Shown: positions 4,021-23,223 of the stretch, piece after piece
Layout of the letters: the number at the start of each line of letters is the position of its first letter
Numbering within the stretch: the stretch's first letter is position 1
Origin: a virus
DNA length: 23,223 nt
Reading direction: 5' to 3' (one strand)
IMG/VR virus record: IMGVR_UViG_3300009159_000336
Span: 1-23,223 of that record
The notes under the pieces: model-generated
What the model saw: the letters and a program-made list of their open reading frames with translations, nothing else
Told to the model about the DNA's origin: nothing
The model's database searches: none
Translations under genes and position numbers: made by a program

Positions 4021-5819
4021 TGTGGATATTTTTGTTCCGCTTTGGCGAGAATTCCAAGCCATTTATTTCGTTGAGTATTTGCAAGCATTCCCTTAGCACC
4101 ATCTAATCGCTTGATCGTGCTCATCACATCGTTCTTGATGTTGCCCGTATCTTCCATTTCAATACCAGCCTCTGCTGCTAGTGATCGAATGAAAGCCTCG
4201 CGCTCATCAGGAGAGCCAGATTGTGATTGTTGACTACTAGGGGCAGGTTTTGCGGTTTGGCTTGCTCGCGTTACATCACGCCGGAGTTTTGCTTCCTTTG
4301 CCTCTTCAGGTGTCAAACCAAGCAGCACATCAACCTCAGCAAGTTTGCGTTCTGATTCTGCATCGCCCTGCGCAGCCCGTGCTCGCATTTCAGCAATCCG
4401 TGCTTGCTGGCGTTGCGCTGCGTATTGTGCATCAACCTGTGCGGATGTAGCCCGTGCTTGTGTTAGGTCAGTGCTTGCCTGCGTCTGACCAGTCCTTGCC
4501 TGCTTGCTTTCAAGTTCAGCCTGCGACATGGCTGGCGCAAACTCAGCGCGGTTTTGCCCAAACAACGCACGTGATTCTGTTTCAGCAATCTTGGCTTGCG
4601 CCATTTGATTAGCCTGATCGCGAGCCTGCTGGTCGCGTTGCATCTGCGACATTGTTCCACGAATCTGCTGCGCTTCAGGTGCTTGATTGCCAGCCACTTG
4701 ATTAGGTTGCATCAGTTGTGGTGGACTCATTGCTTGCAGGCGGCGATCAAGCGCGTTTGAAACCATTGCAATGTCAGCCTGACCAAACGGCATTGACCAG
4801 CCAATCTCGCGGCTGATAGCCATTGATCGTTGCATCAAGAACTGGATTTGCTGCGGACGAGGCAACTGAGCAATGTTCTGATATCCGACATCCGTGATTG
4901 TCGTATCGGCAAGATCGTCAATTGCACCGGGGTTAGACTGGCTGGCGTACCACGATGGGAAACTAGCAGTGCGCCGAATGCCGCCAACTGGTGGAGCCAA
5001 CAACGCAAAGCGATTAGTGCTTGCCTGCTTACGCCGTAACTCTTGAAGATATTGTGCCTTGAACTCATCAGGGATTGAATCATCATCCATGATTCCTTCC
5101 GCCTGAGTAGTCATCAATTCATTCTTGTTCTTTGCCCAACTCTCTGCCTGCGCTTGCCCAACTTGCAACGAAGCCTGATCAGCAGCCTTAGCCATCTCGC
5201 GCATGACCTGTTTGTCACCAGCCTTAAACTTGTCGTACATCGACTGAACCATCGAGTACGTACCGCGTGGATCGTTCTCCATGTTCATTGCCGCGTAGTC
5301 CATGAAACCCGGTACTGATGATTCCATTTCCTGCGCCATCTTCTCAACCGCAGGCATGAGCCGTTGAGACTCCTGCTGATTGCGCATCTGCTTTGCCATC
5401 GCAATACGCGCCTGTGCGCGAGTCTGCAAGCCAGCCGACCACTGTTCCTGCGACATTCGAATGGCTTGCCGCTGTCCACGCTTGTCCGTAAACAGCGCAG
5501 CCGGAGTGCCATCAGGCAACGTGCCGAAGTCCAAAGCCTCAAGACCCGTGTAATACCCATGCTGAATGGCAGCATCGACCGCCTCATACGTGCCATACGG
5601 AGCGATCTGGCGCGAGCCACGGTGGTCGAGCGCAGCAGCCCTGAGAGCCTTATCGTCCATCAATGGATCAGGCTGTTGAGCCTGTTGAGCAGGACGCACG
5701 AAACCGTCAGCAGGCGGTTGAGCCATGCCCTCGTCCGGTCCAATCAATGCACTCTCAGGACTTGGCGGTCCGACAAGTTCTTCTGGAGTCATAGGACTTG
5801 GCTTAGGTAGTTGAGACAT
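4017..5819 (-). CDS. Internal virion protein, 600 aa, Gln/Ala-rich
   Basis: The start ATG at 5817-5819 overlaps the previous stop as TAATG, and its own stop overlaps the next start as ATGA, so translation is probably coupled on both sides. The first 60 residues are proline-rich and look disordered. Residues about 75-130 form a small domain with LPDGTPAALFTDKRGQR and MSQEQW, a DG...DKRG pattern I associate with phage internal proteins. Two long helical, Gln/Ala-rich stretches follow (about 130-250 and 375-480), with coiled-coil character in the second (QAKIAETESRA, ARIAEMRARAAQG). The C-terminus is a predicted helical piece ending in KYPQ. No enzyme motif is seen. Position after the nozzle and two smaller internal-protein candidates suggests an ejection protein, by analogy with T7 gp15. 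That role is inferred from gene order and composition, not from a recognised family. Confidence 0.85.
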   Translation of the reverse strand: MSQLPKPSPMTPEELVGPPSPESALIGPDEGMAQPPADGFVRPAQQAQQPDPLMDDKALRAAALDHRGSRQIAPYGTYEAVDAAIQHGYYTGLEALDFGTLPDGTPAALFTDKRGQRQAIRMSQEQWSAGLQTRAQARIAMAKQMRNQQESQRLMPAVEKMAQEMESSVPGFMDYAAMNMENDPRGTYSMVQSMYDKFKAGDKQVMREMAKAADQASLQVGQAQAESWAKNKNELMTTQAEGIMDDDSIPDEFKAQYLQELRRKQASTNRFALLAPPVGGIRRTASFPSWYASQSNPGAIDDLADTTITDVGYQNIAQLPRPQQIQFLMQRSMAISREIGWSMPFGQADIAMVSNALDRRLQAMSPPQLMQPNQVAGNQAPEAQQIRGTMSQMQRDQQARDQANQMAQAKIAETESRALFGQNRAEFAPAMSQAELESKQARTGQTQASTDLTQARATSAQVDAQYAAQRQQARIAEMRARAAQGDAESERKLAEVDVLLGLTPEEAKEAKLRRDVTRASQTAKPAPSSQQSQSGSPDEREAFIRSLAAEAGIEMEDTGNIKNDVMSTIKRLDGAKGMLANTQRNKWLGILAKAEQKYPQ

Positions 5820-7165: not shown

Positions 7166-9654
7166 TAGTATGTTCCCTTCACGTTCTTTGTGTGTGGCAT
7201 TGGGTCGATCAGCGCAGCCATGCGCTCAACCGCCCAAGGCACTCCGTAACTATCGATGCGAGCGAAGACTGCTTGATCGCGGATGCGGCATCGAAGCGCG
7301 TCATTACGACCAGATTGCAACTCGCCAATCTGGATGTAGTTAGTATTGGTGTACGTGCCGCTACTCACGACAATGCGCGGAGACGGGGATGATCCGGGCA
7401 GGGTTGGCAATGGAAGTCCAGTTGCATTGCCATAGACATAAACACCGCCGGGAGTATCAAGTGAAACACCGGGCAATGATTCGTCACGAACGAATAGCGT
7501 TGCATAAGACGGACCAGTGTCATTCTGAATCGCCCAATTATTTGTTGGTGCAGACCCTAGATTATAAATTCTATTGTCACCAAATGAATATGTTCGTGCC
7601 GTTGGATCGGTGATCAGGGTATCGGTGGTTGTGTATGTATGAGGAGCAAGTGATTCTGGATACCCACACTCAATTCCAGTTGTCAATGCTCCAAACGCAG
7701 GAACACCAAAGATATATGGGCTTACTGGATCCCACGAAGAAGTACTAGGCAGACCACCATCCAGAACCACAGCCGGGAACGAATCATCGTATGTGACCGT
7801 GACGTTGACAATGGCTTCTCCAATTGCCTCTTCTGCTGTTTGACCAGACAGAACAGATAGGAATGGACCAGTCAATCGAACGTTTGGAACATTGAAGTTT
7901 GTTTGTTCCTGCGGCTCATCCATCGTCAATTCAACACGCATATCGCGCAACATGACCTGTGATAGATTTGGCGATATAACCGGACCAATGGTCAATGAAC
8001 TGACAATCTTCTGTGCAGCAGCAGTATTGTTGTCTACGGTGAATACTGTTCCTGATTTGTAACCAGTAGCGGCTTGACCATCAACACCCGATGTCAGGTC
8101 GCGATCAAACCAACCGACATAACCATCTTCACTCCCAAGAGCCAGCACTGGTGATCGAGCGTCACCAAACGGAAACTCGCCAATGCATGACGGTGCTTGG
8201 AAGGCTGTCCAGCCAGTACGAATTGTCCAGAACGAATCAGTTGCTTGACTGTAAACAAGATGCGTACTGCTTGACGGCAAGTCAGTACGAGACATGATGC
8301 AATAGATGTTCTGGATTTCAGGGTCGTAACCAAGCGAACAATTCAATTGGTCAAATTTCTGTGATTGGAAGAATGAATCGAGCCGACCGCCAGTGATTCG
8401 ACCAGACTGCGTAATTTGGAATTCGTTTGGGCGGACGCGATACAAACCGTCCTGCGCCATGACGTATACCGTCTGAGAGTCAGACACACACCACGCCTTG
8501 GCAGAGACAATGCCTACTGATCGCGACAACTCAATCATGCGAGCCTGCGTGTCAAACACCGGGTCAGCAGATAGATAGGTCATCGTGTGCCGACCAGCAA
8601 ACAACAGCCCACTCTCTGCCATTGGGATCAGCGCAATAATTGGCTCCCCGGGAATAGAGAACTTGGTTGACAAGTTGCCAGCAACAGCATCATCAGGGGT
8701 TGAGCCGGGAACCCAATCGTCAACGTCATTGATTTTGCTCAGGAACCAGTTGTTGGGCGAGGGCGTAAAGCCGCTCAACGCTAACCGACCACCAAAGCGA
8801 ACTAACAAACTCGCACGTTCGCCTGCTTCTGCTTTAGCAGTACCAATACTACTTGCAGTTGATGAAGGCTTAATGGTCATTTCAGGACCACTAGTAATAA
8901 ACGTGACTCCCGTGGTGCTTCCACTGCCAACCGTGGTTGCTATTGCAGGACCGGGAGTAGTTCCAGTAAATGTTCTTGTTAAATCAAACTGATAAGGGCT
9001 AGTTGAAATAATTGACCGTACATAAAATGTTTCATGGAATGAATAACCTGATATTGCAACACCAGAGGGAAATGATCCCGTGACTGTAATCGGTTGACCA
9101 GCCGTCAAGTTTGCAGCAGTGCATTGAAAGACCCCAGCGGAACTAACAACAGTAACGCTTGATAATACTGTTCCCCAAAATTCAACTGTTGCTGCCGAAG
9201 TCGCTGTTGTAATATTCATCCGGCGGTATTTTTTACCGTCAGCAAAGTAAGCGTAATTCCCAAAGATGGCAACAGAAATGTTGCCTGTTGAATTTAACTT
9301 AGAAGTTGATGGCGCGTAAGTTGCTGCAACTGGCGTGGTAATACCCGGATCAATGATGTACACCTCGCCACCTGCAACAACAATGCATCGTTGTTTAAGA
9401 ATTGTTGTTCCACTTACATCCACATACGCATCAGCACGGACAATGGCTTGCACCTCTCGCGTGAGCGCAGTTGGAATGGTGTTGAATTCAAACGCTCCAA
9501 GCAACGCTCTGCGCTGACCAAGTCGCTGCTTCCCTTTGTATGCGTCATACGGCAACACGTTCAACGAGTCGAGCGTGAAGCCGGGAGGCAATGACGAATA
9601 TGCACTGTCAACGTGCAATCCGCGTGAAGGAAGAGTGATTGGTAGGTATGGCAT
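7165..9654 (-). CDS. Tail nozzle protein (tail tubular protein B-like)
   Basis: An 829-aa, beta-rich protein. Its N-terminus holds LPSRGLHVDSAYSSLPPGF and then LNVLPYD and GKQRLGQR, resembling the start of nozzle or tail-tubular-B proteins of podoviruses (T7 gp12 role, P22 gp10 role), which are beta-propeller-like and close the short tail. Many blocks of alternating beta strands follow, such as GGEVYIIDPG, AQDGLYRVRP and GSEDGYVGWFDRDL, as expected for propeller blades. The start ATG at 9652-9654 overlaps the fibre stop as TAATG, tying nozzle synthesis to fibre synthesis. The stop overlaps the first internal-protein gene in the same way. Length is close to that of the family. I am confident that it is a tail structural protein and fairly confident of the nozzle role. 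Confidence 0.88.
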   Translation of the reverse strand: MPYLPITLPSRGLHVDSAYSSLPPGFTLDSLNVLPYDAYKGKQRLGQRRALLGAFEFNTIPTALTREVQAIVRADAYVDVSGTTILKQRCIVVAGGEVYIIDPGITTPVAATYAPSTSKLNSTGNISVAIFGNYAYFADGKKYRRMNITTATSAATVEFWGTVLSSVTVVSSAGVFQCTAANLTAGQPITVTGSFPSGVAISGYSFHETFYVRSIISTSPYQFDLTRTFTGTTPGPAIATTVGSGSTTGVTFITSGPEMTIKPSSTASSIGTAKAEAGERASLLVRFGGRLALSGFTPSPNNWFLSKINDVDDWVPGSTPDDAVAGNLSTKFSIPGEPIIALIPMAESGLLFAGRHTMTYLSADPVFDTQARMIELSRSVGIVSAKAWCVSDSQTVYVMAQDGLYRVRPNEFQITQSGRITGGRLDSFFQSQKFDQLNCSLGYDPEIQNIYCIMSRTDLPSSSTHLVYSQATDSFWTIRTGWTAFQAPSCIGEFPFGDARSPVLALGSEDGYVGWFDRDLTSGVDGQAATGYKSGTVFTVDNNTAAAQKIVSSLTIGPVISPNLSQVMLRDMRVELTMDEPQEQTNFNVPNVRLTGPFLSVLSGQTAEEAIGEAIVNVTVTYDDSFPAVVLDGGLPSTSSWDPVSPYIFGVPAFGALTTGIECGYPESLAPHTYTTTDTLITDPTARTYSFGDNRIYNLGSAPTNNWAIQNDTGPSYATLFVRDESLPGVSLDTPGGVYVYGNATGLPLPTLPGSSPSPRIVVSSGTYTNTNYIQIGELQSGRNDALRCRIRDQAVFARIDSYGVPWAVERMAALIDPMPHTKNVKGTY

Positions 9655-11015
9655 TAGGCAATACGTTTAATCGTGATATAGCCCCAGTTAACGTTCGGTA
9701 CTGCACCACCGCTAGATGCTGCAATAACAATAGTTGCAACTGTATAAGTTGAAGATGGTTGAAATACATACCCTGTATAAATTGGAGACTCTGAATATCC
9801 AAACGTAGCAGTGTTCAAACCAGTAGTTCCAGCACTATGTCGATATCCAGATTTATATTGAGCGTAAATTCCAGCGTTGGTGGTTATTTGTAAATTTGCT
9901 GCACGTGAACCGCCAGTTGTTGAATACGCCCCTTGCGACCAGTAGTAAACGTACTCGATACCAAGTAATTGAGTAGAAATATTGATGACGTAATTAGTTG
10001 GTCCTGTTGGAATAGTCGTAGTTACAACCCACGCATTTGTATTATCTATTACAGAATTTGATCCTGCCGTTACTGCGGTATCAACATACGACTTAGTTGT
10101 TAGATCAGTGACTGCTGTAGGAACACCATCGCCACGAATAGTTGTTACTACTGTTCCACCCGTGTTCTTCGTTGAAAATACACTTGTCCCAACGGCTGCT
10201 GCTGTTCCCAAGACAAGCGGAACAACAAGTGATGTAGTACCTGTTGTTACAGTTAATCCACCATCAACAGTAGTTGCTTTAAGCGCAGTTGTTCCAGAAG
10301 AAACAGTAATTCCACCACTTGATGTAAGACCAGTCGCACCAGCACCAACACCAACTGCGCTAAATGTGGTTGTTGAGGTGAGTGCTGAATCAGTGATTTT
10401 AAGACGGTTTACACCATTGGTGGTAAATCCAATCTCTTCTGCCGCAGATTGATATATTCCAGTATTAGTATCGCCACTAAAGGTTAATGACGGTGATGCT
10501 GCTGAAGCAACAGGAAGAAGCACCCTTAGGCTTAATGTGATTTGGGTAATCGACAGACTATCGGCTGCGGCTAACGTATCAATGCGCTTCCACGAAGTCC
10601 ATGTTGTTCCGTTGTATGCACGGAGAAATTGCTTTGCAGTTACCGATGTATTGATTTGTTGAATCACAATCCCATTTGATGGGACAGTTACTGTCAATAC
10701 TGAATTGCCATCGGTTGCACCCTGTACATATTCAGCAGCAGGAATTGCAGGCGTAGATGTGTAGGTGTTGGCAGATGAAAGTGGATACCGACCTTGCGCA
10801 AGTGCTAGGTTCAAATTTAAACTTGCATCAACTGGCAACTCTGGATACGTTGAGTTAACGTATGCAAGCGAGTTCCACACAGTTGATCCATCGCCAATCT
10901 TGAACGCTGTTGTACCAGCGTCAGTAACAAAGCCAAGTTCACCGGGTTCAAGAGTAGGATTAGCAGAAGCCCATGCTGCTGCAAGTCCGCGCCGAATTTG
11001 CATTTTAATCGCCAC
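9654..11015 (-). CDS. Tail fibre with Mtd_N and pyocin-knob domains
   Basis: The 453-aa protein starts at GTG (11013-11015), chosen because a strong AGAGGAGGA site lies seven bases upstream. The open frame extends to an ATG at 11081, but that would overlap the small upstream gene and lacks such a site. Residues 5-52 (IQIRRG-type start, here MQIRRGLAAAW, then LEPGELGFVTD and KIGDGSTVWNSLAY) match the Mtd_N domain of tail fibres. Residues about 66-147 (LNLNLALAQGRYPL, YNGTTWTSWKRID) look like a pyocin-knob domain. A GDTNTGIYQ block (181-189), two repeats of GG[IL]TV..GTT (18-residue period) and TKSYVD (307-312) make up a shaft. The last 130 residues are beta-rich and probably the receptor-facing tip. 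The gene is coupled to the nozzle gene by TAATG. Role: host recognition. Confidence 0.9.
   Translation of the reverse strand: MAIKMQIRRGLAAAWASANPTLEPGELGFVTDAGTTAFKIGDGSTVWNSLAYVNSTYPELPVDASLNLNLALAQGRYPLSSANTYTSTPAIPAAEYVQGATDGNSVLTVTVPSNGIVIQQINTSVTAKQFLRAYNGTTWTSWKRIDTLAAADSLSITQITLSLRVLLPVASAASPSLTFSGDTNTGIYQSAAEEIGFTTNGVNRLKITDSALTSTTTFSAVGVGAGATGLTSSGGITVSSGTTALKATTVDGGLTVTTGTTSLVVPLVLGTAAAVGTSVFSTKNTGGTVVTTIRGDGVPTAVTDLTTKSYVDTAVTAGSNSVIDNTNAWVVTTTIPTGPTNYVINISTQLLGIEYVYYWSQGAYSTTGGSRAANLQITTNAGIYAQYKSGYRHSAGTTGLNTATFGYSESPIYTGYVFQPSSTYTVATIVIAASSGGAVPNVNWGYITIKRIA
10224..10316 (-). repeat. Two 18-residue repeats in the fibre shaft
   Basis: Residues 234-246 and 252-264 of the fibre both follow GG[IL]TV[ST][ST]GTT[AS]L, spaced by 18 residues (54 bases). 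The similarity is at protein level; the DNA copies have diverged, so this is an old internal duplication fitting a repetitive beta shaft rather than a recent tandem repeat. Confidence 0.7.
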
Positions 11016-11021
11016 TGCTAA

Positions 11022-11030
11022 TCCTCCTCT
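11022..11030 (-). promoter_or_regulatory. Strong ribosome binding site deciding the GTG start of the fibre
   Basis: The minus strand reads AGAGGAGGA, one of the closest matches to the anti-Shine-Dalgarno sequence in the window, with about seven bases to GTG at 11015. It sits in the 19-base gap after the stop of the 36-aa gene. It supports GTG at 11015 over the upstream ATG at 11081 and the downstream ATG at 11003. Confidence 0.8.
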
Positions 11031-11034
11031 TGTA

Positions 11035-11145
11035 TTAGAACTGCTTCTTGCTGCGTAGGTAATACCCACCAACAACGCCAACTACCAACGCCAAGCCAAC
11101 TGCCCACACGCTGCCGATGAATGAACTTAGGTCTGCGAGAATCAT
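11035..11145 (-). CDS. Tiny single-span membrane protein, 36 aa, possible holin
   Basis: The frame from ATG 11143-11145 to TAA 11035-11037 encodes 36 residues. The N-terminus MILADLSSFIGSV is followed by one hydrophobic span (about 12-29, VWAVGLALVVGVVGGYY) and a basic end RSKKQF, which suggests the C-terminus stays in the cytoplasm. A strong AAAGGAGA site (11150-11157) precedes the start, and the start overlaps the upstream lipoprotein stop as ATGA. Such a good binding site makes real expression likely despite the size. In a block of three overlapping membrane-protein genes it could be a small holin or pinholin-like protein. It could also be an anti-holin or a membrane-anchored accessory; no family is recognised. 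Confidence 0.7.
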   Translation of the reverse strand: MILADLSSFIGSVWAVGLALVVGVVGGYYLRSKKQF

Positions 11146-11922: not shown

Positions 11923-13875
11923 TTATGCGCTTGCGAGAAGGGTGCTAAAGATTGCTCCAGAAACTCCGTCATATCCATTTGATCGACTACTAGAACTTGA
12001 ATTCAAATGAATCTGATCTGTAGCGACAATGCTGTACATGGTTCCGTTAGGGGTAGATCCGTTTGTCAACTCAAAATAATCAAACGACACGCTTGTATCA
12101 ACAACGCAAGAACCATATCCATCATTTGCATTTGTAGTTGCCCATGTGTTTGCTGCTGGAGACACGGTTGCTCTTGCAGCAATCCACGAAGAACCCGATC
12201 CGCTATAGGTTGGTGCGAGTTGGTGAGTTACTGTAAACACAAATGCCAACTTAGCAGCATCGCCACCAGTAGAAGCCCATCGAGTAGCAATTCGATTTCT
12301 GATCCTCTCAGTTGCAGCGGTCCATGTCTCAGCAGTTTCTGCGCCGTTAACTCCAGAATTTACAAACACAACCAATCGACCCGAACCAGTAGCCGCAACC
12401 TGACGCTCGCGCAATTCTTTCAAAAGCGCATCAAGAACCTTGTCCATTCCTTCTACGCGGTCAGCAATTTGCGTTGTGGATCGACCATCTGATGTAGTCA
12501 AATTGGTGACGCTATAGCCCTTTTTAAGTGCTATGAATGAGTGGTATAAGCAAGAGAATGGTCCGGTCACAAGACGCGAGTTTGCCTGTGCGCTTGCCGC
12601 TCCATCCCAAGTACACCAAAGATCAGCCGGGGTGGATGGGCTTGTAACCGGAAGAATTTCAGTAGCGTATCCCGCTGATGCTGTTCCGTTGTTGGTACTA
12701 CGAAATGCACTTACAGCATATGTAGTGGTAGACGCATCTGTAATTGCTAATTTGAATTGCCCGGATCCGGTTGCATATGTTCCGTAAACCATTCGATATT
12801 GACACGCTTGCGCTCCGCTAAATGTAAGCGGACTATAAGAGCGAACGCGAATAGCATTTGAAGTGCCTGTTCCTGTCCACACAATTCCCGTTGGAATTAC
12901 TACAGGATCCCATTGGAAACGATTTGGCTGAGGCAGCATTGTGGTTGCTGTTGTTGCAAAATTGGTGGAATCAAAATTCAAATATGTCTTAAGGGCATCG
13001 TTTGGAGTTTCTGCTGGGCATTGAACCATGAGCCTTTGATTGCCAGTAAATCCAGTTCCTCCGGTTGTGTTGTCATCGTTGCTGTATTGAAATGCACCAG
13101 TACCAACCATTGCCTCATACAACGGTGTACTCGCAGCAGAGTAACTACTTGGCGCACCCCAAAAGCGACCACCTGCCATTACAGCGGTTGCGTACATATC
13201 AATTCCATACTGGTAGCCAAGGACACGATCAATACCAACCGTGTAGCCGTACTCGTTACTCCCCGCGTTGCTATCTCCAATCATAAGAACGTCTATAGAG
13301 TCTGTCCCTACTACTGCATCGCGTAAGAAAGAAGAAGCGCGGCGCGATCCGTAGAAACCGGGGACTGATGAACTCACTGAACCAAACGTGTATTCGGTTG
13401 GAATATAAACACGCTTCAGCGCAGTCCCATCAGCAACAGCGGCATTATCCATAAGCGTGACCGAGTAACCACCGGGTGTCATGGTGCTGACGGAGTTTGT
13501 CAGAACACCAGCAGTGCTCGATACACCAAGAAGCGTTCCCGAATTCACAGTCGCGTTCACAAGAACCTTGACAGAGCAGATGCCGCCGAATTGCACCTGC
13601 ACCTCACGACCGTTGTCGCCTGCTCCAGTCATCAGACCCGTAACCACGCCAAGGTAGCCAGTGTTGCCAGTCTCTGTAGACACAGCCTTGCGGATGCAGT
13701 TAAACACGTAGCCTGTGTTGGCAGCCTGCTGCGGATCAACGACCGCACCAGCATGGATGAACGAGGTAATGACCAGATCGCCAATGGCAACTGATGTACC
13801 AGACTTGTTCACGCAGGTAACAGTTGTTCCTACTGGTTGAACGCCAAGGCGATTTTGAATCGGTGCAAATGTCAT
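11923..13875 (-). CDS. Decoration-like domain fused to SGNH hydrolase, virion surface esterase candidate
   Basis: The protein has 650 residues from ATG 13873-13875. That start was chosen over TTG at 13881 because MTFAP then aligns with MIFTP of the 167-aa decoration gene. Residues 1-165 align with that protein nearly without gaps: Cys21 in both, IGDLVITSFIHAGAVVDP against VGDVVATSFLHGSAVIDP, YVFNC, GY[LI]GVVT and VQFGGI. From about 190 comes an SGNH-hydrolase pattern: IDVLMIGDSN with Ser202 in GDS, VNSGVNG (506-511) as the Asn block, and TDQIHLN with Asp620 and His623. Roughly 200 residues between the first and Asn blocks form a beta-rich insert. SGNH enzymes remove acetyl or other ester groups from sugars; in a phage this would modify surface polysaccharide. 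The paralogous N-terminus suggests attachment to the capsid, or a shared trimer fold used elsewhere on the virion. Confidence 0.9.
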   Translation of the reverse strand: MTFAPIQNRLGVQPVGTTVTCVNKSGTSVAIGDLVITSFIHAGAVVDPQQAANTGYVFNCIRKAVSTETGNTGYLGVVTGLMTGAGDNGREVQVQFGGICSVKVLVNATVNSGTLLGVSSTAGVLTNSVSTMTPGGYSVTLMDNAAVADGTALKRVYIPTEYTFGSVSSSVPGFYGSRRASSFLRDAVVGTDSIDVLMIGDSNAGSNEYGYTVGIDRVLGYQYGIDMYATAVMAGGRFWGAPSSYSAASTPLYEAMVGTGAFQYSNDDNTTGGTGFTGNQRLMVQCPAETPNDALKTYLNFDSTNFATTATTMLPQPNRFQWDPVVIPTGIVWTGTGTSNAIRVRSYSPLTFSGAQACQYRMVYGTYATGSGQFKLAITDASTTTYAVSAFRSTNNGTASAGYATEILPVTSPSTPADLWCTWDGAASAQANSRLVTGPFSCLYHSFIALKKGYSVTNLTTSDGRSTTQIADRVEGMDKVLDALLKELRERQVAATGSGRLVVFVNSGVNGAETAETWTAATERIRNRIATRWASTGGDAAKLAFVFTVTHQLAPTYSGSGSSWIAARATVSPAANTWATTNANDGYGSCVVDTSVSFDYFELTNGSTPNGTMYSIVATDQIHLNSSSSSRSNGYDGVSGAIFSTLLASA

Positions 13876-13877
13876 AG

Positions 13878-15101
13878 TCAAGATCCCGTATAAGTTTGAA
13901 GTTCAATGTCTGAAAGAAGGCGTGGATAGAACACCACGGAATGGACACCGTTATTGAGGTGACCTTCAAAGTCTCCAATCCCTGTAATCGCGTCAGTACC
14001 AATATTCATCCACCCAATAGTGGATGGGCTGACATCAGATGTTCCACTCGTCACCGTCCCACCATTCGTACACATCCGGATCGCAGCGTTAGACGATCCA
14101 CTAATAGTGAACGCTGTGGCATTCAATGCACTTGTCAATGATGTTGCTGTGATTGATCCAAGTGTCCAAAGCAAACTGCTAGTAGCCGAACCATTGGCGT
14201 GTTTCAGGTGAAGATGTTTAGTTGCCGCAATATCAAACGCCAGCACTGATCGATCACCAGCACCAACCGCTCCACGGAAGTACTTGACAACAAACGTACC
14301 GGGCTGTGTGAACCACGAAGTGAAATTCGTTCCACTCATGGTCAGTTGATCATCACCACGGGTATCAGGTGTCAATGTGACGGGGACATATGAAGAGGCA
14401 ACGGTTCCGTTTTCTAGTTGCACACCCCAAATTTCTACCGAATCGTTAATATCAACAATCCGAAATGCAATTTGTTGTTGACTAGCCGCTGTCAACCCTT
14501 GATATCGAACCCATTCACTAGTAATAGTTACGGTTGTCCACGTTGGACTAGTAATCGTGGTAGAAACTTGGAATGCTCCAGTACCACTTACACGCCGAAT
14601 CCATGCCGACCAAACTCGCTGCGTATTTGGCTTTGCCGTAGCAAGACCATGCGTAATAGTTGCATTGGCAGCACTCGCAGTGAAACGAACAGCGTTTGTA
14701 GTTCCGTCCGGAGATACTTGATCAGTGGCTCTGGTGATATTTACGTCAGTCCATTGAAAGTCTCCACCAACAGTGGAGAATGTTTGGCTATGCGTGAGTC
14801 GATTGGTGACGGCGGCTTCAATAAGCACACCTTTTGATGTCATTATGCCGCCAATTGATTCATAAGTGAATCGAGGATAGCCACTATCAACGTATCCAAC
14901 TAAACCATTTGAACGAATGTACGTGGCTGCACCAGCACGTGCAAATGTCAATCCATAGGTAGATAGATCAACCTTTCCACCCATCCTGCTGAAATCAAAC
15001 TTCCTTGTGCCAACCGTTTGACCGTCAAGAGACAGAGTTCGATTGCGCTCTTGACGCAATGTGGGTGGGGCAACAGACCATGTTCGATTTGATGACATCA
15101 T
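13878..15101 (-). CDS. Spike/fibre protein with carbohydrate-binding-like and lectin-like domains
   Basis: A 407-aa protein whose ATG directly follows the stop of the 174-aa gene. Residues 51-80 (LTFARAGAATYIRSNGLVG, then YPRFTY) and 91-109 (GVLIEAAVTNRLTHSQTFS) match a pattern found in many phage head- or tail-spike proteins, which read like FTRAS.ATRV...G, PRF.Y and GLLIE..RTNLL. Residues about 115-250 have the beta-rich look of a carbohydrate-binding module (WTDVNITRATDQVSPDG, VWSAWIRR, WVRYQG). The last 150 residues look like a concanavalin-type lectin domain ending in VVFYPRLLSDIELQTYTG, a common end of such domains. It most likely binds surface glycans. Its neighbour is the SGNH protein, so the two may bind and trim the same glycan. 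Whether it sits on head or tail is not shown. Confidence 0.85.
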   Translation of the reverse strand: MMSSNRTWSVAPPTLRQERNRTLSLDGQTVGTRKFDFSRMGGKVDLSTYGLTFARAGAATYIRSNGLVGYVDSGYPRFTYESIGGIMTSKGVLIEAAVTNRLTHSQTFSTVGGDFQWTDVNITRATDQVSPDGTTNAVRFTASAANATITHGLATAKPNTQRVWSAWIRRVSGTGAFQVSTTITSPTWTTVTITSEWVRYQGLTAASQQQIAFRIVDINDSVEIWGVQLENGTVASSYVPVTLTPDTRGDDQLTMSGTNFTSWFTQPGTFVVKYFRGAVGAGDRSVLAFDIAATKHLHLKHANGSATSSLLWTLGSITATSLTSALNATAFTISGSSNAAIRMCTNGGTVTSGTSDVSPSTIGWMNIGTDAITGIGDFEGHLNNGVHSVVFYPRLLSDIELQTYTGS

Positions 15102-15626: not shown

Positions 15627-15638
15627 AGCGTTTCCTTA
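15627..15638 (-). promoter_or_regulatory. Ribosome binding site fused to adaptor stop codon
   Basis: The minus-strand leader TAAGGAAACGCT precedes ATG at 15626; TAA ends the adaptor gene and overlaps the AAGGAA site. Eleven of twelve bases match the leader at 6350-6361, over 9 kb away. Confidence 0.75.
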
Positions 15639-16361
15639 TGATGGGCTTGGGACGGTGTTTGTCATTACAAACCCGCCGTTGTTTCGATAGTTGTTTATCC
15701 AAACGTTTGGTCGCAACTGACCAAAGTGTGCTTGCAGCATCCCGTCCTTGCGCTGCGCAGTACCAAAGAGTGTTCCAGCCTCAATCTCTGCAAGACGCTG
15801 TGACTGTTGTCCATCTTCGTACGATTCCGTAATCGCACGGACGTAGAGAACGAGCAAACCCTCTAGATAAAGCGGGATTGAGATGACATCCGTTGGCAAG
15901 TTTGCAGTCGATACACGCTGCCAGCCCGTGCGATACGTGATCTTGATCTTGTTTACTTCAGAACTGTCAGGAGTTGGATAGATTTGCAACTGATACGTCT
16001 GTGTAGGAGCAGCATTTGTAGGCACAACCGCCTTCACGTACCCTCGCGTACCGTAACTATCAAAGTCAGACGAACGAGTGTTCTCTACCTCATCCTGATT
16101 GGTGATCAACAGCGGCAATGTTCCGCTCCACGCGGCAATCAGTTCAGAAAAGTCAGCAGGAAGCAGCACATACTGTAGACCAGCAGTCGTTGACAGCAGT
16201 GCAGTGGCTTGCCTGAACGTCCACTGGTAGCCAAACAGATGCTCACCAGCCTGATTAATGATCTCAGCCTGTCGTTCTGCGACAGTCTGACCAGCGGCGG
16301 TCGATGGGCGACCACCAATGGCGAGCAACACATGGTTCGTCAGGTCTTTGTAGTACAGCAT
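15636..16361 (-). CDS. Head-tail adaptor (tail tubular protein A-like)
   Basis: A 241-aa protein. MLYYKDLTNHVLLAIGG opens a helical N-terminal part; the centre is beta-rich (YQLQIYPTPDSS, KIKITYRTGWQ), followed by ISIPLYLEGLLVLYVRAITESYEDG and a helical end. The arrangement YR.GW, then P..LE.LL..YVRA and a YED motif is what I know from podovirus adaptor or tail-tubular-A proteins (T7 gp11 role), which sit under the portal and start the tail. Gene order after the capsid genes agrees. Oddly, the ATG at 16359-16361 has no Shine-Dalgarno site: a 12-bp hairpin ends only six bases upstream. It could also be named a connector; a tail-completion role is the alternative. Confidence 0.85.
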   Translation of the reverse strand: MLYYKDLTNHVLLAIGGRPSTAAGQTVAERQAEIINQAGEHLFGYQWTFRQATALLSTTAGLQYVLLPADFSELIAAWSGTLPLLITNQDEVENTRSSDFDSYGTRGYVKAVVPTNAAPTQTYQLQIYPTPDSSEVNKIKITYRTGWQRVSTANLPTDVISIPLYLEGLLVLYVRAITESYEDGQQSQRLAEIEAGTLFGTAQRKDGMLQAHFGQLRPNVWINNYRNNGGFVMTNTVPSPS

Positions 16362-16413: not shown

Positions 16414-16917
16414 TCAAGAAATCTGATCACGGAACCAATACTGGAGCGGAATGAAGACGCGGCGTTGCACGGTCGATGCACCAGCAATTGCTTCCATAAG
16501 CACGGCTGCTGCATTTACACCAGTAGCAGTACCACCTACGTCAACAAACGAACCAGCAGTATCGCCGGGTTCAAGCAATGCACCAATAGTTACTGCACCG
16601 CTGGCAATGACCTTGGCAGTAACAATTCCACCAAACTGAACAGTGACTGTTGAACCAACAGCACCCGAAGTACCAGCCAAATCAGTAACAACTCCAATGT
16701 AACCGTTGAAGTTGGTAAGGTCACCGTCTGCTGGAGCAACGCAGTTAAAGACATAGAGCGGATCATAGCCCAAACTTGGATCAATAACTGCACTGCCATG
16801 CAAGAACGAAGTAGCAACAACATCACCGACTGCAACAGTTGCAGTACGGACTACGCACTTGGTCGTGTAGTTCACGGGGTGTGCGCCGAGAGGACCAGCC
16901 GATGGGGTAAAAATCAT
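16414..16917 (-). CDS. Capsid decoration / head surface protein candidate
   Basis: A 167-aa protein from ATG 16915-16917, chosen because AAAGGAA lies at a proper distance and the paralogous domain in the SGNH fusion starts at the same residue (MIFTP against MTFAP). The frame is open further upstream to 17031, but that part runs into the capsid gene. The sequence is all-beta in look (VGDVVATSFLHGSAVIDP, YVFNCV, GYIGVVTDL, VTVQFGGI, RRVFIPLQYWF). It follows the major capsid gene and is fenced by two hairpins. Small beta proteins next to the capsid gene commonly bind the outer shell and strengthen it, hence the call. That call is inferred from order and size; no named family is claimed. The gene ends in a double stop, TGATGA. 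Confidence 0.8.
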   Translation of the reverse strand: MIFTPSAGPLGAHPVNYTTKCVVRTATVAVGDVVATSFLHGSAVIDPSLGYDPLYVFNCVAPADGDLTNFNGYIGVVTDLAGTSGAVGSTVTVQFGGIVTAKVIASGAVTIGALLEPGDTAGSFVDVGGTATGVNAAAVLMEAIAGASTVQRRVFIPLQYWFRDQIS

Positions 16918-16938: not shown

Positions 16939-16960
16939 GGGGGTGGGATGACCCACCCCC
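16939..16960 (-). terminator. GC-rich 9-bp hairpin after the major capsid gene
   Basis: On the minus strand GGGGGTGGG, loop TCAT and CCCACCCCC form a perfect stem 7 bases after the capsid stop. It is followed by TTCTCTCAC and then the AAAGGAA site of the next gene. No uridine run follows, so full termination is unlikely; partial termination, processing or mRNA stabilisation of the capsid message is more likely. Confidence 0.7.
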
Positions 16961-16967
16961 CGTTGTA

Positions 16968-18245
16968 TTAGGAGACAGCAATAGGGGCAACGATTCCGTG
17001 ACGCTGACGGCTGTTGCAGAACACGTTCCACCAGCAGTCAACAGGCTGAACCCAAGTAAACGGCTGATTTGGGTGACGCATGACATCATGCTTCTTCATG
17101 TAACGAGTCGAGTGATAGATAGGAGTGATGTACTGACCGTTCACGAAGAAGAATCGAGCACCCTTATCGATGGTGTTCGCTGCAAATTCGGTTGAATTGG
17201 CAACCATAGTCTGAGCCTGCCGACCACTGAGATCGTCTGTACGTGAAGAACCAGCAGCAATAGCAGGATAAATTGCAGCCGTGTCCATGTTGGCGCAGTA
17301 TTCAACAGGAATACCACTGAAGGTAGGCGTGTTGTACGCCGAATCTTGCTGACTGACCAACATATTGTTGCTGGAACGGAGTGTGCGCTTGTAAAGGTTC
17401 AAACCTTCCTTGGAGCACAAGATCATTTGGCGATTGAAGTTTGTTTCTTCAAAGTACTGCTTCTGAGTAAGCGGAGACTTGAATTGAACCTTTAAGAACA
17501 TATCGTCAAATGCGCCAAACAGACTATAAACAGATCGTGCAATCGATGCGTTTGCGTTGTGACCTGTGTAAGTAACGTTGGTCGTAGCAGCAGTGTTGAT
17601 TAAAGCAGACTTGTTGTAGAACGAAATCTGATTTGACCAACGTGGATCATTTGCTGGGTTAATGCCCAAGATATTTGGAGCACTTGACTGTGTTGCAAGC
17701 CATGCCGAACCACCGCGTTCACCAAAGGTGAGATCGCTATTGACGGTTTCAGTGATGAAAGCAGGAATCGAGTACGGCTCCTTGCCACCAGTTTCCACGT
17801 TGCCGTAGTTATTGAATGGTGATGCCCACAGATCGTTTTCCATGCCGTTGAGCATGGAAGTCCACATACGCATTTCCTTGATGCGCTTCACGCGCTTGTA
17901 CATGACCTTGGCATCGCCTTCGTTCAGTTCGATTTCCTGATCGGTCCACGACATATGGTCCATGCTGAAACGCCAAGGAGCAGACAGTGTGTCAGTGACC
18001 TGCGGGTTGCGCCAAGTGAATACTTCATTCGGCTCATACTTCTGGTAGGTGGACGAATCGTCAAAGACGATGACATCCTTGATGGAAGTACCACCCTGAA
18101 TAGTCGTTTCGCTTGCCTTCTCCTTGAGGAGACGCGAGAGAACGTAGTTATTCTTGACGGCTTCGTTAATAACGGCATCCGCACTCTTCAGATATGAAGG
18201 TCCGGTTGACTGCATGAAGTCATTGAATTGTGTAATTGAAGGCAT
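16968..18245 (-). CDS. Major capsid protein
   Basis: A 425-aa protein from ATG 18243-18245, with AAAGGAA upstream. It directly follows the scaffold gene and precedes a hairpin, as expected for the most abundant virion protein. Features: a helical N-terminus (MPSITQFNDFMQSTGPSYLK), then GGTSIKDVIVFDDSSTYQKY and FTWRNPQV, then WRFSMDHMSWTDQEIELN. I know this pattern from capsid proteins of short-tailed phages with a P22/HK97-type shell. The middle is mixed alpha/beta, and the end carries HDVMRHPNQPFTWVQPVDCWW. Length is normal for the HK97 fold. There is no N-terminal protease-processed delta domain and no protease gene nearby; the separate scaffold fits this. The fold assignment rests on position and pattern, not on a structure search. 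Confidence 0.88.
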   Translation of the reverse strand: MPSITQFNDFMQSTGPSYLKSADAVINEAVKNNYVLSRLLKEKASETTIQGGTSIKDVIVFDDSSTYQKYEPNEVFTWRNPQVTDTLSAPWRFSMDHMSWTDQEIELNEGDAKVMYKRVKRIKEMRMWTSMLNGMENDLWASPFNNYGNVETGGKEPYSIPAFITETVNSDLTFGERGGSAWLATQSSAPNILGINPANDPRWSNQISFYNKSALINTAATTNVTYTGHNANASIARSVYSLFGAFDDMFLKVQFKSPLTQKQYFEETNFNRQMILCSKEGLNLYKRTLRSSNNMLVSQQDSAYNTPTFSGIPVEYCANMDTAAIYPAIAAGSSRTDDLSGRQAQTMVANSTEFAANTIDKGARFFFVNGQYITPIYHSTRYMKKHDVMRHPNQPFTWVQPVDCWWNVFCNSRQRHGIVAPIAVS

Positions 18246-18259
18246 AGCCTATTCCTTTA
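18246..18259 (-). promoter_or_regulatory. Capsid ribosome binding site overlapping scaffold stop
   Basis: The minus strand reads TAAAGGAATAGGCT directly before the capsid ATG. TAA ends the scaffold gene and AAAGGAA is the binding site, a third case in this window of a stop codon merged with the next Shine-Dalgarno site. Confidence 0.7.
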
Positions 18260-19129
18260 ACGTTTGGTGCGGGACGAACTCTTGTGCGTCCCAGAGAGGA
18301 TTTGATCAAGAACATCATCATCAGCATCGCGAACAGGAGCCTTCACAGGCGGACTTGACGCACGTGGCGCGGTTGGCTGTGAGTTCTTGATCGATGGTGC
18401 AGACGTTTTGGTTCCAACTAGTTCCGTGTAGGCGGCTCGCGTGAGTTCATCAATGCTCGCGTACCCACCCGGCTTTGCCGCACCCATTGCAGACATCTTT
18501 GCTACGACTACGTCAAAGGTTGGAGCCTTCGCCCCATACTGAACACGTATCGAAGCATCCGATGCACGGGCTTCGGCAAGCAGCATTCTTTCCTGCATTT
18601 GCTGCTGTTGCATCTGAAAGGCTGAACGGACTGGCGCAACAACGTCTTCGCCATACATTTCCGCCATTTGCTCAAAGGGATCAGCCGCCTTTGGAGCCGC
18701 ATTCGTAGGCTTGTTAGCCTCGACCGCCGCATCCGGTGGTGACTTCGTCTGCGCAAGTTGCTCCTCCATCTGCTTCACTCGACCGCCGTATGAATCGACA
18801 TCCTTCTGTCGCTTCTCAGCCTTTGCAGCCCATTCGGCTAGCACAGCATCGGAAGCAGAAGAAATGATTGCATCCGGTACGCCATCCCGTTTAAGGATCT
18901 TGGCGACCACTTCACGGTCAAAGGCGGGTGTGGATGGTACAGACTCAGGAGCGGGTGCAGACGAATCTACATCGGCTTCATCATCATCGGATTCCACACT
19001 TCCAAGCAATTGATCAAGTATCGAATCATCGTCATCTGGTTGTGATGATTCAACTTCGATACCAGTGTCTTGCTCCGTTGTCCCGCTGGGCAACGTTTCG
19101 ACATCAATGGGTTCAGCGGTGCTGTCCAT
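18257..19129 (-). CDS. Scaffolding protein, acidic with repeated end motif
   Basis: A 290-aa protein from ATG 19127-19129. This start has AGAGGAC at the right spacing; the frame runs on to 19222, but that lies inside the FmdB-like gene and reads as basic, unlike the rest. The N-terminal 70 residues are strongly acidic (PDDDDSILDQLLG at 31-43). Helical coiled-coil stretches follow (about 70-130 and 150-195, with FQMQQQQMQERMLLAEARA). The C-terminus has a Pro/Ser linker, then DADDDVLDQILSG (268-280) and a basic tail HKSSSRTKR. Acidic front, coiled centre and basic end before the capsid gene is the usual scaffold plan; the basic tail is where P22 scaffold binds the coat. The DD.[IV]LDQ[LI]L motif occurs at both ends. 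Confidence 0.88.
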   Translation of the reverse strand: MDSTAEPIDVETLPSGTTEQDTGIEVESSQPDDDDSILDQLLGSVESDDDEADVDSSAPAPESVPSTPAFDREVVAKILKRDGVPDAIISSASDAVLAEWAAKAEKRQKDVDSYGGRVKQMEEQLAQTKSPPDAAVEANKPTNAAPKAADPFEQMAEMYGEDVVAPVRSAFQMQQQQMQERMLLAEARASDASIRVQYGAKAPTFDVVVAKMSAMGAAKPGGYASIDELTRAAYTELVGTKTSAPSIKNSQPTAPRASSPPVKAPVRDADDDVLDQILSGTHKSSSRTKR

Positions 19130-19131
19130 AG

Positions 19132-19434
19132 TTAGTCCTCTGCTCGCATATAGCCGTGCTCTGACGCAACGTTGCGTTCGTGCCTGCGGCTTGAGATGAT
19201 TGGTTGACCCTTCGCATTGCAAGGAACTCCCGGCATATTGCGCGGGAGTGTCACACTTACATAGGGGTATGTGCCTGTAGTGAAGTTAGGCGACAGTTGC
19301 GCACTACTTAGAATGCGTGTCAACGTGCCGCGTTCCGGATGCTGCACCACTTCGCCTACCGAAGGCACAGTGGACATGGGGTAATAAACCTCCACGACTT
19401 GCCCTGCTTGATTGGTAAATTCGTAGTTCGGCAT
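19132..19434 (-). CDS. FmdB-like small protein lacking the zinc cysteines
   Basis: A 100-aa protein whose ATG overlaps the portal stop as TAATG. The start MPNYEFTNQAGQVVEVYYPM, then VPSVGEVV and TLTRILSS, follows the plan of FmdB-type zinc-ribbon proteins (MP.YEY.C..C...E...M....P...R). The N-terminal cysteines are absent, and the only Cys in the protein is in GVPCNAKGQPI. Phages often carry such a gene near portal or packaging genes, role unknown. The C-terminal half is basic and possibly disordered (SSRRHERN). The 3' end holds the binding site of the scaffold gene. The similarity is a pattern match by eye; the protein could also be a small head-assembly factor. Confidence 0.78.
   Translation of the reverse strand: MPNYEFTNQAGQVVEVYYPMSTVPSVGEVVQHPERGTLTRILSSAQLSPNFTTGTYPYVSVTLPRNMPGVPCNAKGQPIISSRRHERNVASEHGYMRAED
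19135..19141 (-). promoter_or_regulatory. Ribosome binding site deciding the scaffold start
   Basis: The minus strand reads AGAGGAC, then TAACT (stop of the FmdB-like gene) and ATG at 19129. It supports the internal ATG for the scaffold rather than the longer open frame. Confidence 0.7.
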
Positions 19435-21206
19435 TACATCCTCGAAGCAGCCGCTGCAATTGCGCCTTGTGATCGCGCCGATATTGCAGGTTGCTCGCCA
19501 GTAGGAGACGGGGAAGGAGGACTTTGTGGAACACCCCCTACCCCCCCTTGTGGTGCTTGCTGTGGTTGGGTTGCTTGTTTCAGGATCGACTCATCAATGA
19601 AGTCAGCCATCTGCGGGACGTTCTGGGCATCGCCAAGGAAGGACATCAGGTCGCGCCAGCGGATCCACGGCATGGCTGGCATTGCCTGCGCAGCCTGAGT
19701 TACAACCGTAAATGTCTCCACAGCACGCTTTTGCGCCAGCATTTCGCTGGTTCGCTCCATTGAATAGGCATCCACATCGATCTGCATATCCTCCCAAGCA
19801 CCCACCTTCAGACCGCCTTGGAAGATCGGATCCTCCATCGGTAAACCCTTGGTGTCCTCGCCGCCGACCGGGATGACGATGCGCTGATCGTGCCACATAT
19901 ACCAGCCGACATTGCGCATGATCGTGTCTACCGACTCTTGGAAGCCGCGCTTGAGGTGGGCAATGCGCATCGTGGAGGCACTTTCAGCAACCGCCACCTC
20001 AGTAGCCGATGCTCCACCTGAGATGTTTCCACGCATCGCATCGGACATCCCCAGTGCTCGATCCAAACGCTCCTTGGCGGTTTCGACCGACTGAATATGT
20101 TGATTTGTAGTGCCACCAACTTCGATGGGGACAATGCTTTGCGCCGTGATTCCTGCTTCTGCAAAGACGTAAAGATCCGGCGCACTGACAATGTCTTGTA
20201 GCAACTTGGGGTTCTTGGCATCGCCGACCAGAATTCTCTTGTACCGCTTGGTGTTCTCTTGCTGACGGACAGCAAGTTCGTTTGCATAGTTGATCTGATC
20301 GCGGCAAGCCACAATCGGACTCAGCGGGTATGGGTCATTGGGAACAGTGAACGCACCGAACATCACGTATGGACCGTTCGGAGCACCATAGTAAGGGCGC
20401 GGGGCGCGGACGTATTCGTATCGCGGTGCTGGTGCGCCAGAATTCCCCTGATACTTGGCAATGGTGTAGATCGTCCCATTGAACAGTGCCTGATCAGTTG
20501 CCTCATCGATCAGTTCGGCAGCAGCCTCATCCAATTCTGGAACCCACACTTCGTAGATAGCGAGTTCCTTGCGCTCTGGGATGTCACGATAGTCACGTAA
20601 TTCGTCAACACCGTTGTTGCAGGCGAGGCTTTCGATGACCTCCCTGTTCCAAGTCTCATCAATCTCAGCCAAACGCAACAGGTCTTCTTTGTCACTGATC
20701 CACACGTGACCCATGAAGCGAGCCTCTTCCCAGTGCTGCGCTGCCGGATCAATGAAGAACCGCTCTGGATCAATGCGGTACAGGCGTGGAAGATACGGAC
20801 CGTCAGCATCCCACTTGCGCTCCGCCCCCTTTGGCTCGTTGACAACCATGCCAACTCCCCAGCCCAACAACATATCGGTGGCAATGCGCTCCAACGTCCC
20901 GCGCACCCGGGTCATCTTCGACCAACGATTGATACCAGCCTTCATCGCTACGCAGGCTGTCTTCTGAATGCCTGGGCGCGAACTGGTCACTCGCACCTTC
21001 GGGTTGTCATGCACGATGCGGGGGAGCACCATCGAAATATACGCATGGACTGCGTTCTCCGGCTGCTCCGTCCCCCGACCGCTTCGGTACGCCGCACCTG
21101 AGAACGCCTCGCGGAGTTCCTTCGGGGTTTCCATGTGCTCATTGCGAAAGTATTCCGCCCGTTCGATCTCGTCACGAATGGCGTTGATATTACTAAAGTC
21201 AATCAC
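19434..21206 (-). CDS. Portal protein
   Basis: A 590-aa protein starting at GTG (21204-21206), which overlaps the preceding stop as GTGA; the stop overlaps the next start as TAATG. The portal ring sits at one capsid corner and passes DNA in and out with the terminase. Signs: helical N-terminal domain, then MLLGWGVGMVVNEP and YRIDPERFFIDPAA (the D.E.F..DP.A pattern of podovirus portals). Later come PLSPIVACRDQINYANELAV and the helical RLDRALGMSDAMRG with SATEVAVAESAS (SATEVA at 400-405), typical of the portal stem and crown. The C-terminal tail is rich in Gln/Pro/Ser. Length fits the 500-750 aa seen for these portals. Its position between terL and scaffold agrees. Confidence 0.92.
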   Translation of the reverse strand: MIDFSNINAIRDEIERAEYFRNEHMETPKELREAFSGAAYRSGRGTEQPENAVHAYISMVLPRIVHDNPKVRVTSSRPGIQKTACVAMKAGINRWSKMTRVRGTLERIATDMLLGWGVGMVVNEPKGAERKWDADGPYLPRLYRIDPERFFIDPAAQHWEEARFMGHVWISDKEDLLRLAEIDETWNREVIESLACNNGVDELRDYRDIPERKELAIYEVWVPELDEAAAELIDEATDQALFNGTIYTIAKYQGNSGAPAPRYEYVRAPRPYYGAPNGPYVMFGAFTVPNDPYPLSPIVACRDQINYANELAVRQQENTKRYKRILVGDAKNPKLLQDIVSAPDLYVFAEAGITAQSIVPIEVGGTTNQHIQSVETAKERLDRALGMSDAMRGNISGGASATEVAVAESASTMRIAHLKRGFQESVDTIMRNVGWYMWHDQRIVIPVGGEDTKGLPMEDPIFQGGLKVGAWEDMQIDVDAYSMERTSEMLAQKRAVETFTVVTQAAQAMPAMPWIRWRDLMSFLGDAQNVPQMADFIDESILKQATQPQQAPQGGVGGVPQSPPSPSPTGEQPAISARSQGAIAAAASRM

Positions 21207-21878: not shown

Positions 21879-22159
21879 TAGTTCTCCTCTGGGAGAAACG
21901 CCCAGATCGGGGTCATCTCACCAACATAGGCGTTGATGATGTTGTGCTCCATGTGCTCATACGCCTCATCTTCTTCCATGCCCTGATCGTTGATCAAGAC
22001 CTGAACGATACGGGCTACGTCATACACCACCCGGTACTTCCCTGTCAGGGAATCACGCGAAATAGCAATAATCGCATCATCGAGTCCATCAGCGAAGACC
22101 GTCTCTTCTTCGTTGTCCTCGACCCACTTGCGTACTTTGTCACCATTAGCAATCATCAT
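21878..22159 (-). CDS. Acidic 93-aa protein of a recurrent phage family, role unknown
   Basis: ATG 22157-22159 overlaps the terminase stop as ATGA, so it is translated with terL; a second ATG follows at once. The protein is acidic (WVEDNEEETVFADGLDDAI) and ends DQGMEEDEAYEHMEHNIINA then YVGEMTPIWAF. The plan DGM..EEA.EY...N..GAYVGE.TP is one I know from many phage genomes near packaging genes, without a known function. Here it is one of a chain of small genes between terL and portal. No catalytic residues or membrane span are seen. Confidence 0.82.
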   Translation of the reverse strand: MMIANGDKVRKWVEDNEEETVFADGLDDAIIAISRDSLTGKYRVVYDVARIVQVLINDQGMEEDEAYEHMEHNIINAYVGEMTPIWAFLPEEN

Positions 22160-23223
22160 CTGTTGACCTCCCAGTGTTTCAGCAAGTCACCCGCACTGCC
22201 CGGAGCGTAAGTCTTCTGGTCGTACTGCGGAACAGGTGCGTCCGACATCGCCATCCACGCCAACGCCAGAGCAATCACTCTATCCCCGTGATTCTCCCGC
22301 GCCCCCGTGCTCTCATCCCGCAACCGACCAGCCACCACCCGACCGTTACTGTCCAACACGTAAGCCAACATCTCATCCATCGTCCCCGTGCATGGCACAA
22401 TCATCTCGCCCTGCTGCACTGATCTACTTAAATTGCCCAGCAGCAAGCGTTTATTTTGCTCAGTGCTCAACCAGCCCACTCGTTCGGTCGCGCCGTGGTT
22501 GGTCATACCCTCCCTCCGTTGCTTCCATACCCGATGGAACCGCTGTGCCTCAAAGTCTCTCTGCATACTTTGACCCGGACCATTCACTTCCCATGCCACA
22601 ACCGCCTCTTTGAACGCTCCACGGCACACACCCACCACCTCAGCAGCCAGATCCGCCGGGGTAATCGTGGCATCCACCATGCTCGCGACCATCCGCTTCG
22701 CCTCCGCATCAATCACACACACCGCACTCGCATGGTTCCCCGTCCCGTATGCCGGGTCAACGCCCACTGAGTAACTGCCCAGCGGCTCCAACTCACCCCA
22801 CAACCGCCACCTTCCCGTTGGACTATCGACAAACCGACCACCCACCCAGTTTGCCCGTCTTGGCTCCGACCCGAACTCGCGCCTGTGCTGTGTGACCGAC
22901 ACACTGGGGAAGAACGCAGCACCCGCACCCATCGCCTCAGCGAACACGTTCTGTGCTAAGTCAACCTTGTCGCGCTTACGCAACTGGTCAGCCAACCAAG
23001 GTGTCCACACATACGTTCCACCACTCACGCCCGTCACCACGCCCGACTGATCTACCCGGTACTCCGCACCCACACCCTTCTCTGGGTGTTGCCAATACAA
23101 CATCTCCAACAAAATCGGCTCGCCCGTACTCCGTGCCTCAGCCACCAACTTGTCATACCGCGTACCAAATCCAATGGGTGTTGACAAAGCAACTCGACAT
23201 GATGTCGTATCCGAAGCAGATCG
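22156..23223 (-). CDS. terL: Terminase large subunit, 5'-truncated at window edge
   Basis: The frame is open to the window end, so the N-terminal ATPase part (Walker motifs) lies outside. A TTG at 23187 is only an internal codon. The visible start RVALSTPIGFGTRYDKLVAE matches the end of the ATPase domain, where terminases have STP.G (coupling region). The nuclease domain follows, with an RNase-H-like acidic set: GVDPAYGTGNHAS, AWEVNGPG and RENHGDRVIALALAWMA, giving Asp144, Glu200 and Asp302 when counted from the codon at 23187. These cut concatemeric DNA during packaging into the portal. The stop overlaps the next ATG as ATGA. The gene is GC-richer (38 of 60 bases at 22261-22320) than the structural genes. 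No small terminase is visible; it may lie beyond the edge. Confidence 0.92.
   Translation of the reverse strand, partial: RSASDTTSCRVALSTPIGFGTRYDKLVAEARSTGEPILLEMLYWQHPEKGVGAEYRVDQSGVVTGVSGGTYVWTPWLADQLRKRDKVDLAQNVFAEAMGAGAAFFPSVSVTQHRREFGSEPRRANWVGGRFVDSPTGRWRLWGELEPLGSYSVGVDPAYGTGNHASAVCVIDAEAKRMVASMVDATITPADLAAEVVGVCRGAFKEAVVAWEVNGPGQSMQRDFEAQRFHRVWKQRREGMTNHGATERVGWLSTEQNKRLLLGNLSRSVQQGEMIVPCTGTMDEMLAYVLDSNGRVVAGRLRDESTGARENHGDRVIALALAWMAMSDAPVPQYDQKTYAPGSAGDLLKHWEVNR

Follow-up and report, generated by a model that had tools for sequence, protein, structure and literature searches.

The window analysed here is a 23,223-bp stretch of viral DNA from IMG/VR, and it represents the structural module of an uncultivated short-tailed phage in which nearly all genes lie on the minus strand. 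The genes run in the order terminase, portal, probable scaffold, major capsid protein, a free 167-aa protein, an SU10-type adaptor, a 174-aa protein of unknown function, a tail protein, and a 650-aa fusion protein. Beyond the fusion gene, two small ORFs of 161 and 87 aa resemble lysis genes, and they are followed by genes for an Mtd-type tail fibre and for sizeable tail or ejection proteins. An open-ended ORF of more than 1,354 aa occupies positions 1 to 4062 on the minus strand and leaves the window at its left end; it is probably an internal ejection protein. The features discussed below are as follows.

22156–23187, minus strand: terminase large subunit, C-terminal part (family match).
19434–21206, minus strand: portal protein, SU10/phrog_156-like (family match).
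18257–19222, minus strand: probable scaffolding protein, from position and composition.
16968–18245, minus strand: major capsid protein (phrog_9953).
16939–16960, minus strand: perfect 9-bp hairpin, GGGGGTGGG-TCAT-CCCACCCCC, between the capsid and free decoration genes, conserved across the lineage.
16414–16917, minus strand: free decoration/cement protein P0002, 167 aa, directly downstream of the major capsid gene.
15636–16361, minus strand: SU10-type head-tail adaptor (PF24175).
13878–15101, minus strand: tail protein (phrog_5939).
11923–13875, minus strand: fusion gene P0001, predicted decoration-fold domain plus SGNH hydrolase, 650 aa (ORF call, BLASTP).
13381–13875, minus strand: predicted decoration/cement domain, residues 1–165 of the fusion, 42% identical to the free protein and 77–92% conserved across the lineage.
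11926–13362, minus strand: SGNH module, residues 172–650, with a probable β-sandwich insert at about 235–455; stand-alone relatives begin at the same junction.
13270–13272, minus strand: codon of Ser202 in block I (GDSN), candidate nucleophile by sequence motif.
12346–12348, minus strand: codon of Asn510 in block III (GxN), by sequence motif.
12007–12018, minus strand: Asp620-Gln-Ile-His623, block V (DxxH), in which the His is invariant and the Asp varies among relatives.
9654–11081, minus strand: tail fibre with an Mtd N-terminal domain (PF18454).

The fusion ORF runs from an ATG at 13875 to a stop at 11923, with an in-frame TTG 6 nt upstream of the ATG, and the stop of the tail protein gene lies 2 nt ahead of that ATG (TGACTATG). 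The free ORF runs from an ATG at 16917 to a stop at 16414. Both ORFs had been correctly placed by the initial annotation, which gave no strand for them. Its proposal of a nearly gap-free N-terminal alignment is borne out, as residues 1–164 of the fusion align with residues 1–162 of the free protein at 42% identity with two one-residue gaps (BLASTP 106 bits, E 1e-31), and all of the common motifs that it had named are present in both proteins (Cys21, SFxH..AV.DP, YVFNC, GYxGVVT, VQFGGI, and RVxIPxxYxF). The local alignment score is 292, compared with a mean of 43 for 500 shuffles (s.d. 7, maximum 76), and these alignment statistics rule out a chance resemblance of the two domains.

The shared domain is predicted to have a capsid decoration/cement fold. 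An AlphaFold2 model of the free copy, built from a 51-sequence alignment (pLDDT 80.6, pTM 0.81), matched cement proteins of Pam3 (E 3e-4), HFTV1 (5e-4), and TW1 (5.5e-4) in a Foldseek search of the PDB, each with a probability of 1.00. The leading ranks were nearly all capsid decoration chains or head-fibre bases, from Pam3, HFTV1 (its capsid stabilisation protein), TW1, T1, FCWL1, Sf11, phi29 (head-fibre base, gp8.5, 6QYY; E 8.9e-3), and BB1, with weaker matches to lambda gpD and SHP. Some matches in viral structure libraries bear the names preneck appendage or tail protein, and long proteins with a decoration fold domain are present in these libraries as well. At the sequence level, the matches are weak but recurrent: PF09956 (Phage_cement_2) matches 21 of the 51 family members at E ≤ 0.1 (best 4e-5) and phrog_122, "head decoration", matches 12 of the 51 (best 1.3e-3). 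P0002 itself scores 16.4 bits against PF09956 (E 0.013), short of the gathering score of 24 bits, and for this reason we describe it as a decoration-fold protein and not as a PF09956 member. Neither half of the fusion had a match in a sequence search of the PDB, and the free protein and the fusion of the window both fall short of every Pfam cut-off and of all PHROG families. AlphaFold2 modelled the full fusion poorly at residues 1–169 (pLDDT about 30) because the 13 sequences available are nearly identical there, so that Foldseek hits of the whole-fusion model are unreliable and the fold of the fused domain rests on its 42% identity to the modelled free copy.

Genes for cement proteins usually lie right after the capsid gene. 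In all 70 loci that show both genes, the free gene comes immediately after that of the major capsid protein, with a gap of 27–83 nt. In part of the lineage, a third decoration-fold gene separates the capsid gene from the free copy (L003:1304-1894, L044:2125-2715, L028:4710-5300, L018:1010-1654, and L025:3197-3898), and these third copies have two unrelated origins in the tree. Strong conserved hairpins are present in the intergenic regions as well. The one at 16939–16960 and its equivalents lie in the gap that separates the capsid gene from whichever decoration gene comes next, and a different one (CCACTGGACGGG-GAAA-CCCGTCCAGTGG) follows the third copy and precedes the free copy in L044, L018, L003, and L028. 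These are perhaps sites of mRNA processing or attenuation. The strength of the ribosome-binding sites, considered as a clue to copy ratio, showed no clear difference between fused and free genes (median −5.8 and −5.6 kcal/mol, respectively). The free protein is itself variable, being 60–100% identical among phages whose portals are 98–100% and capsid proteins 83–99% identical, which suggests that this protein is likewise subject to diversifying pressure or to exchange.

The C-terminal part of the fusion is, judging by its motifs I, III, and V, a diverged SGNH hydrolase. The blocks that had been pointed out earlier are present, with GDSN at residues 200–203, VNSGVNG with the GVN of block III at 508–510, and TDQIHLN spanning D620 to H623. 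The block I motif with Ser202 is found in all SGNH-type fusions, and in nine aligned C-terminal parts that are otherwise only 27–49% identical to the first, GDSN, the block III Asn, and the His belong to the small number of invariant positions. Block II reads GG(A/L)N in several relatives and SDGR in the window protein, although the alignment is uncertain here. Residues 235–455 or so, between blocks I and II, probably form a β-sandwich insert according to the model, and lectin- and CBM-like structural matches to this insert come from a low-confidence region and are suggestive only. In L020:2390-5098, the insert region (residues 270–446) matches the family of the tail protein encoded next to it (phrog_5939), which suggests domain exchange between adjacent genes. 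Pfam gave no match for the C-terminal part of P0001. The SGNH core of a relative, with the insert removed, scored 23.8 bits against PF13472 (E 7e-5; cut-off 32.9), and as a calibration, the structurally solved SGNH enzyme G7C gp63.1 scored 15.6 bits (E 0.023) against the same profile. No similarity to G7C gp63.1 was detected when the SGNH parts were compared with it by profile.

An entire lineage of phages carries the fusion as a fixed trait that arose once. About 20 further IMG/VR contigs carry it, and the 16 distinct copies rule out an assembly chimera as its source. Among the 40 loci that span the region from the adaptor to gene 7, it is present in 11 of 11 within the lineage and in 0 of 29 outside, and the nearest sister phages (L060 and L061) are without it. 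In the tree, all fused domains fall into a single clade (bootstrap 97, SH-aLRT 100) whose sister is the free copies from the same phages (91/84), and a single duplication and fusion therefore accounts for all of them. The fused domain has remained under purifying selection (dN/dS about 0.12), with the same start Met and the conserved N-terminal arm retained. Conservation reaches 90% or more at 35 positions in the free copies of other phages; of these, the fused domain keeps 27, compared with 30 for the lineage's own free copies. A tblastn search of 50,697 GenBank phage records, a set from which records very near the window's genome may have been left out, detected no relatives of the fusion, the free copy, the capsid protein, or the portal. 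With capsid and portal having no relative at the protein level in these records, the lineage is known from metagenomes only. Bacterial and archaeal genomes (query A4) yielded no relatives either and thus offer no clue to the host.

While the N-terminal mount is held constant, the payload that it carries is not. Identity among the fusions drops from 70–100% to 10–35% past about residue 200, and the enzyme parts, up to 70% different, are mostly 27–58% identical in phages whose portals are 98–100% identical. Payload exchange is independent of the tail fibre: the fibres of L048 and L059 are 98% alike and their payloads 29% alike, and L059 and L046 have payloads that are 100% alike and free copies that are 60% alike. 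Payload size ranges from about 425 to 740 aa. In one fusion (L022:444-2372), some ten [AGS]T(I/V)xGGxxN repeats (GTIxGGxxN) take the place of the SGNH domain; they had no match in Pfam and, by eye, are reminiscent of trimeric YadA-type heads. The SGNH module itself changes mounts, since both stand-alone and connector-fused relatives exist. The stand-alone relatives in other phages (L111:5854-7377, L112, L113:5965-7365, and L114:2880-4277) are 58–78% identical to the module of L015, have a short N-terminus in place of the decoration domain, and begin exactly at the fusion junction. The connector-fused relative, seen on a single contig (L115:598-2427), is a 609-aa ORF right behind a fragment of a capsid gene, and it combines a 39% identical SGNH relative with a head-tail connector of the gp6-like type (PF05135, E 3e-11).

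We consider it probable that the 650-aa protein is a head-fibre-like decoration paralogue that displays an active, host-facing esterase on the capsid, and not on the tail or neck. An ancestral podovirus would have duplicated its cement/decoration gene, and one copy would have been joined to an SGNH hydrolase module with a junction near residue 170. Capsid binding is the simplest reading of the fused domain because it combines a cement fold with cement-like constraint, and the domain most likely attaches, probably in trimeric form, to the capsid lattice, where it would share or divide the lattice sites with the plain protein, either mixed in or at special sites. The C-terminal SGNH domain may project outward and remove ester groups (e.g., O-acetyl) from a polysaccharide of the host surface or matrix during adsorption. 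With a constant mount and an outward-facing payload, the latter could be exchanged or diversified between near-identical phages in the manner of a tail receptor-binding protein. In that case, the head of these viruses, and not just the tail, would probably bear a surface-modifying enzyme. A broader and more tentative proposition is that the head shell serves as a second, tail-independent adsorption surface, with a mixed lattice from a duplicated cement protein showing exchangeable glycan esterases, and that SGNH modules move between mounts (cement domain, connector, or none) as receptor-binding domains do between tail anchors.

Alternatively, the duplicated decoration domain may have taken on a new role and now anchor the fusion to the tail or neck, close to the adaptor or the adjacent tail protein. 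The fusion would then be an appendage comparable to the preneck appendage of phi29 or the tail spikes of G7C, and its enzyme would deacetylate the receptor there. In every relative, the fusion gene follows the adaptor or tail protein gene and precedes the tail-fibre gene instead of lying beside the capsid gene, a position that speaks against the capsid, although gene order is weak evidence. The preneck appendage of phi29 has the same fold (PMC7602432), in keeping with the names found among the viral structure matches, yet the strong PDB fold matches are all to capsid-bound proteins. Phage SGNH deacetylases described in papers sit on tails (PMC9569702, PMC11654681), and a relative of the SGNH module is joined to a head-tail connector in another phage. 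Co-divergence did not single out a partner of the fused domain among capsid or tail proteins, as its divergence is uncorrelated with that of the capsid protein (rho −0.06, 55 pairs) and weakly correlated with that of the adaptor (rho 0.25, p 0.04, pairs non-independent). Against a tail anchor, the fused domain is sister to the free, capsid-adjacent copies and keeps most of the constraint of the decoration family, including the N-terminal arm and core motifs. We regard the tail or neck placement as rather unlikely, its main grounds being that the fusion gene lies among tail genes and that the fold occurs in phi29-type preneck appendages. The initial reading is partly supported, the decoration domain by the predicted fold, the weak family matches, and the capsid-gene adjacency of the free copy, and the SGNH hydrolase by its motifs; the tail organelle that it gave as an alternative keeps a smaller share of the probability.

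It is improbable that the fusion sits on the capsid as a glycan-binding adhesin whose SGNH fold has weak or no catalysis. Known capsid fibres and Hoc-like proteins do work in adhesion (PMC7602432), several relatives do not keep the block V Asp, and the insert, which was modelled with low confidence, looks like lectin/CBM sandwiches, but invariance of the Ser, Asn, and His amid 27–49% identity is expected of an active site and not of a binding surface. That the N-terminal domain is just a trimerisation or folding domain of a soluble or internal protein is very improbable, for while gene position alone does not prove presence in the virion, the conservation pattern of a binding domain, the location in a structural operon, and the swapping of a seemingly host-facing C-terminal part all argue otherwise.

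Host-range enzymes are usually sought on tails. If the fusion is borne on the capsid, its enzyme would explain the rapid diversification of a head-side gene, and it would be natural proof that a cement lattice tolerates large payloads (about 425–740 aa), which is the aim of hand-made capsid display. Because near-identical phages of the lineage differ mainly in payload and tail fibre, they would also allow a clean test of how capsid enzymes affect host range. Annotation pipelines miss both the decoration and the SGNH halves of such proteins.

Head fibres, capsid turrets, and long proteins with a decoration fold domain are already known, and no description of a decoration domain fused to an SGNH hydrolase was found in the open-access literature. 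The free copy shares its fold and capsid-gene adjacency with the cement proteins of Pam3, TW1, HFTV1, and T1 (PF09956), which are single-domain proteins, although its sequence falls below the Pfam cut-off. A paralogous decoration pair in one lattice is known from PhiM1, in which the plain alpha-claw and the alpha-paw with its extra arm occur at a fixed 5:2 ratio (PMC11440229), but these proteins are α-helical, form dimers at two-fold axes, and carry no enzyme. G7C gp63.1 (4QNL) and the enzymes of Moo19, B2, and Possum are SGNH O-acyl esterases/deacetylases that act on O-antigen-type polysaccharide (PMC11654681, PMC9569702) and differ in being mounted on the tail via tail-spike N-domains. The turret protein gp31 of HFTV1 places trimeric deacetylase-like and galactose-binding-like domains on the capsid of a tailed virus (PMC12494034), but its deacetylase has a Zn-type polysaccharide deacetylase fold and stands on a separate hexameric base protein, whereas the fusion has SGNH motifs on a duplicated cement domain. 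The head fibre gp8.5 of phi29 is the precedent for a cement-fold base bearing an exposed domain (PMC6542822), with a β-tulip base on the capsid followed by an exposed C-terminal domain (6QYY; PMC6542822, PMC7602432), an exposure that we infer for the fusion. The exposed part of gp8.5 is a helical fibre (a helix-turn-helix supercoil), and phi29 has no enzyme there and no free plain copy, whereas the fusion has an SGNH payload and a separate plain paralogue. Because its C-terminal part is of the SGNH type, the fusion is not a member of the gp8.5 family, though it may work like a head fibre.
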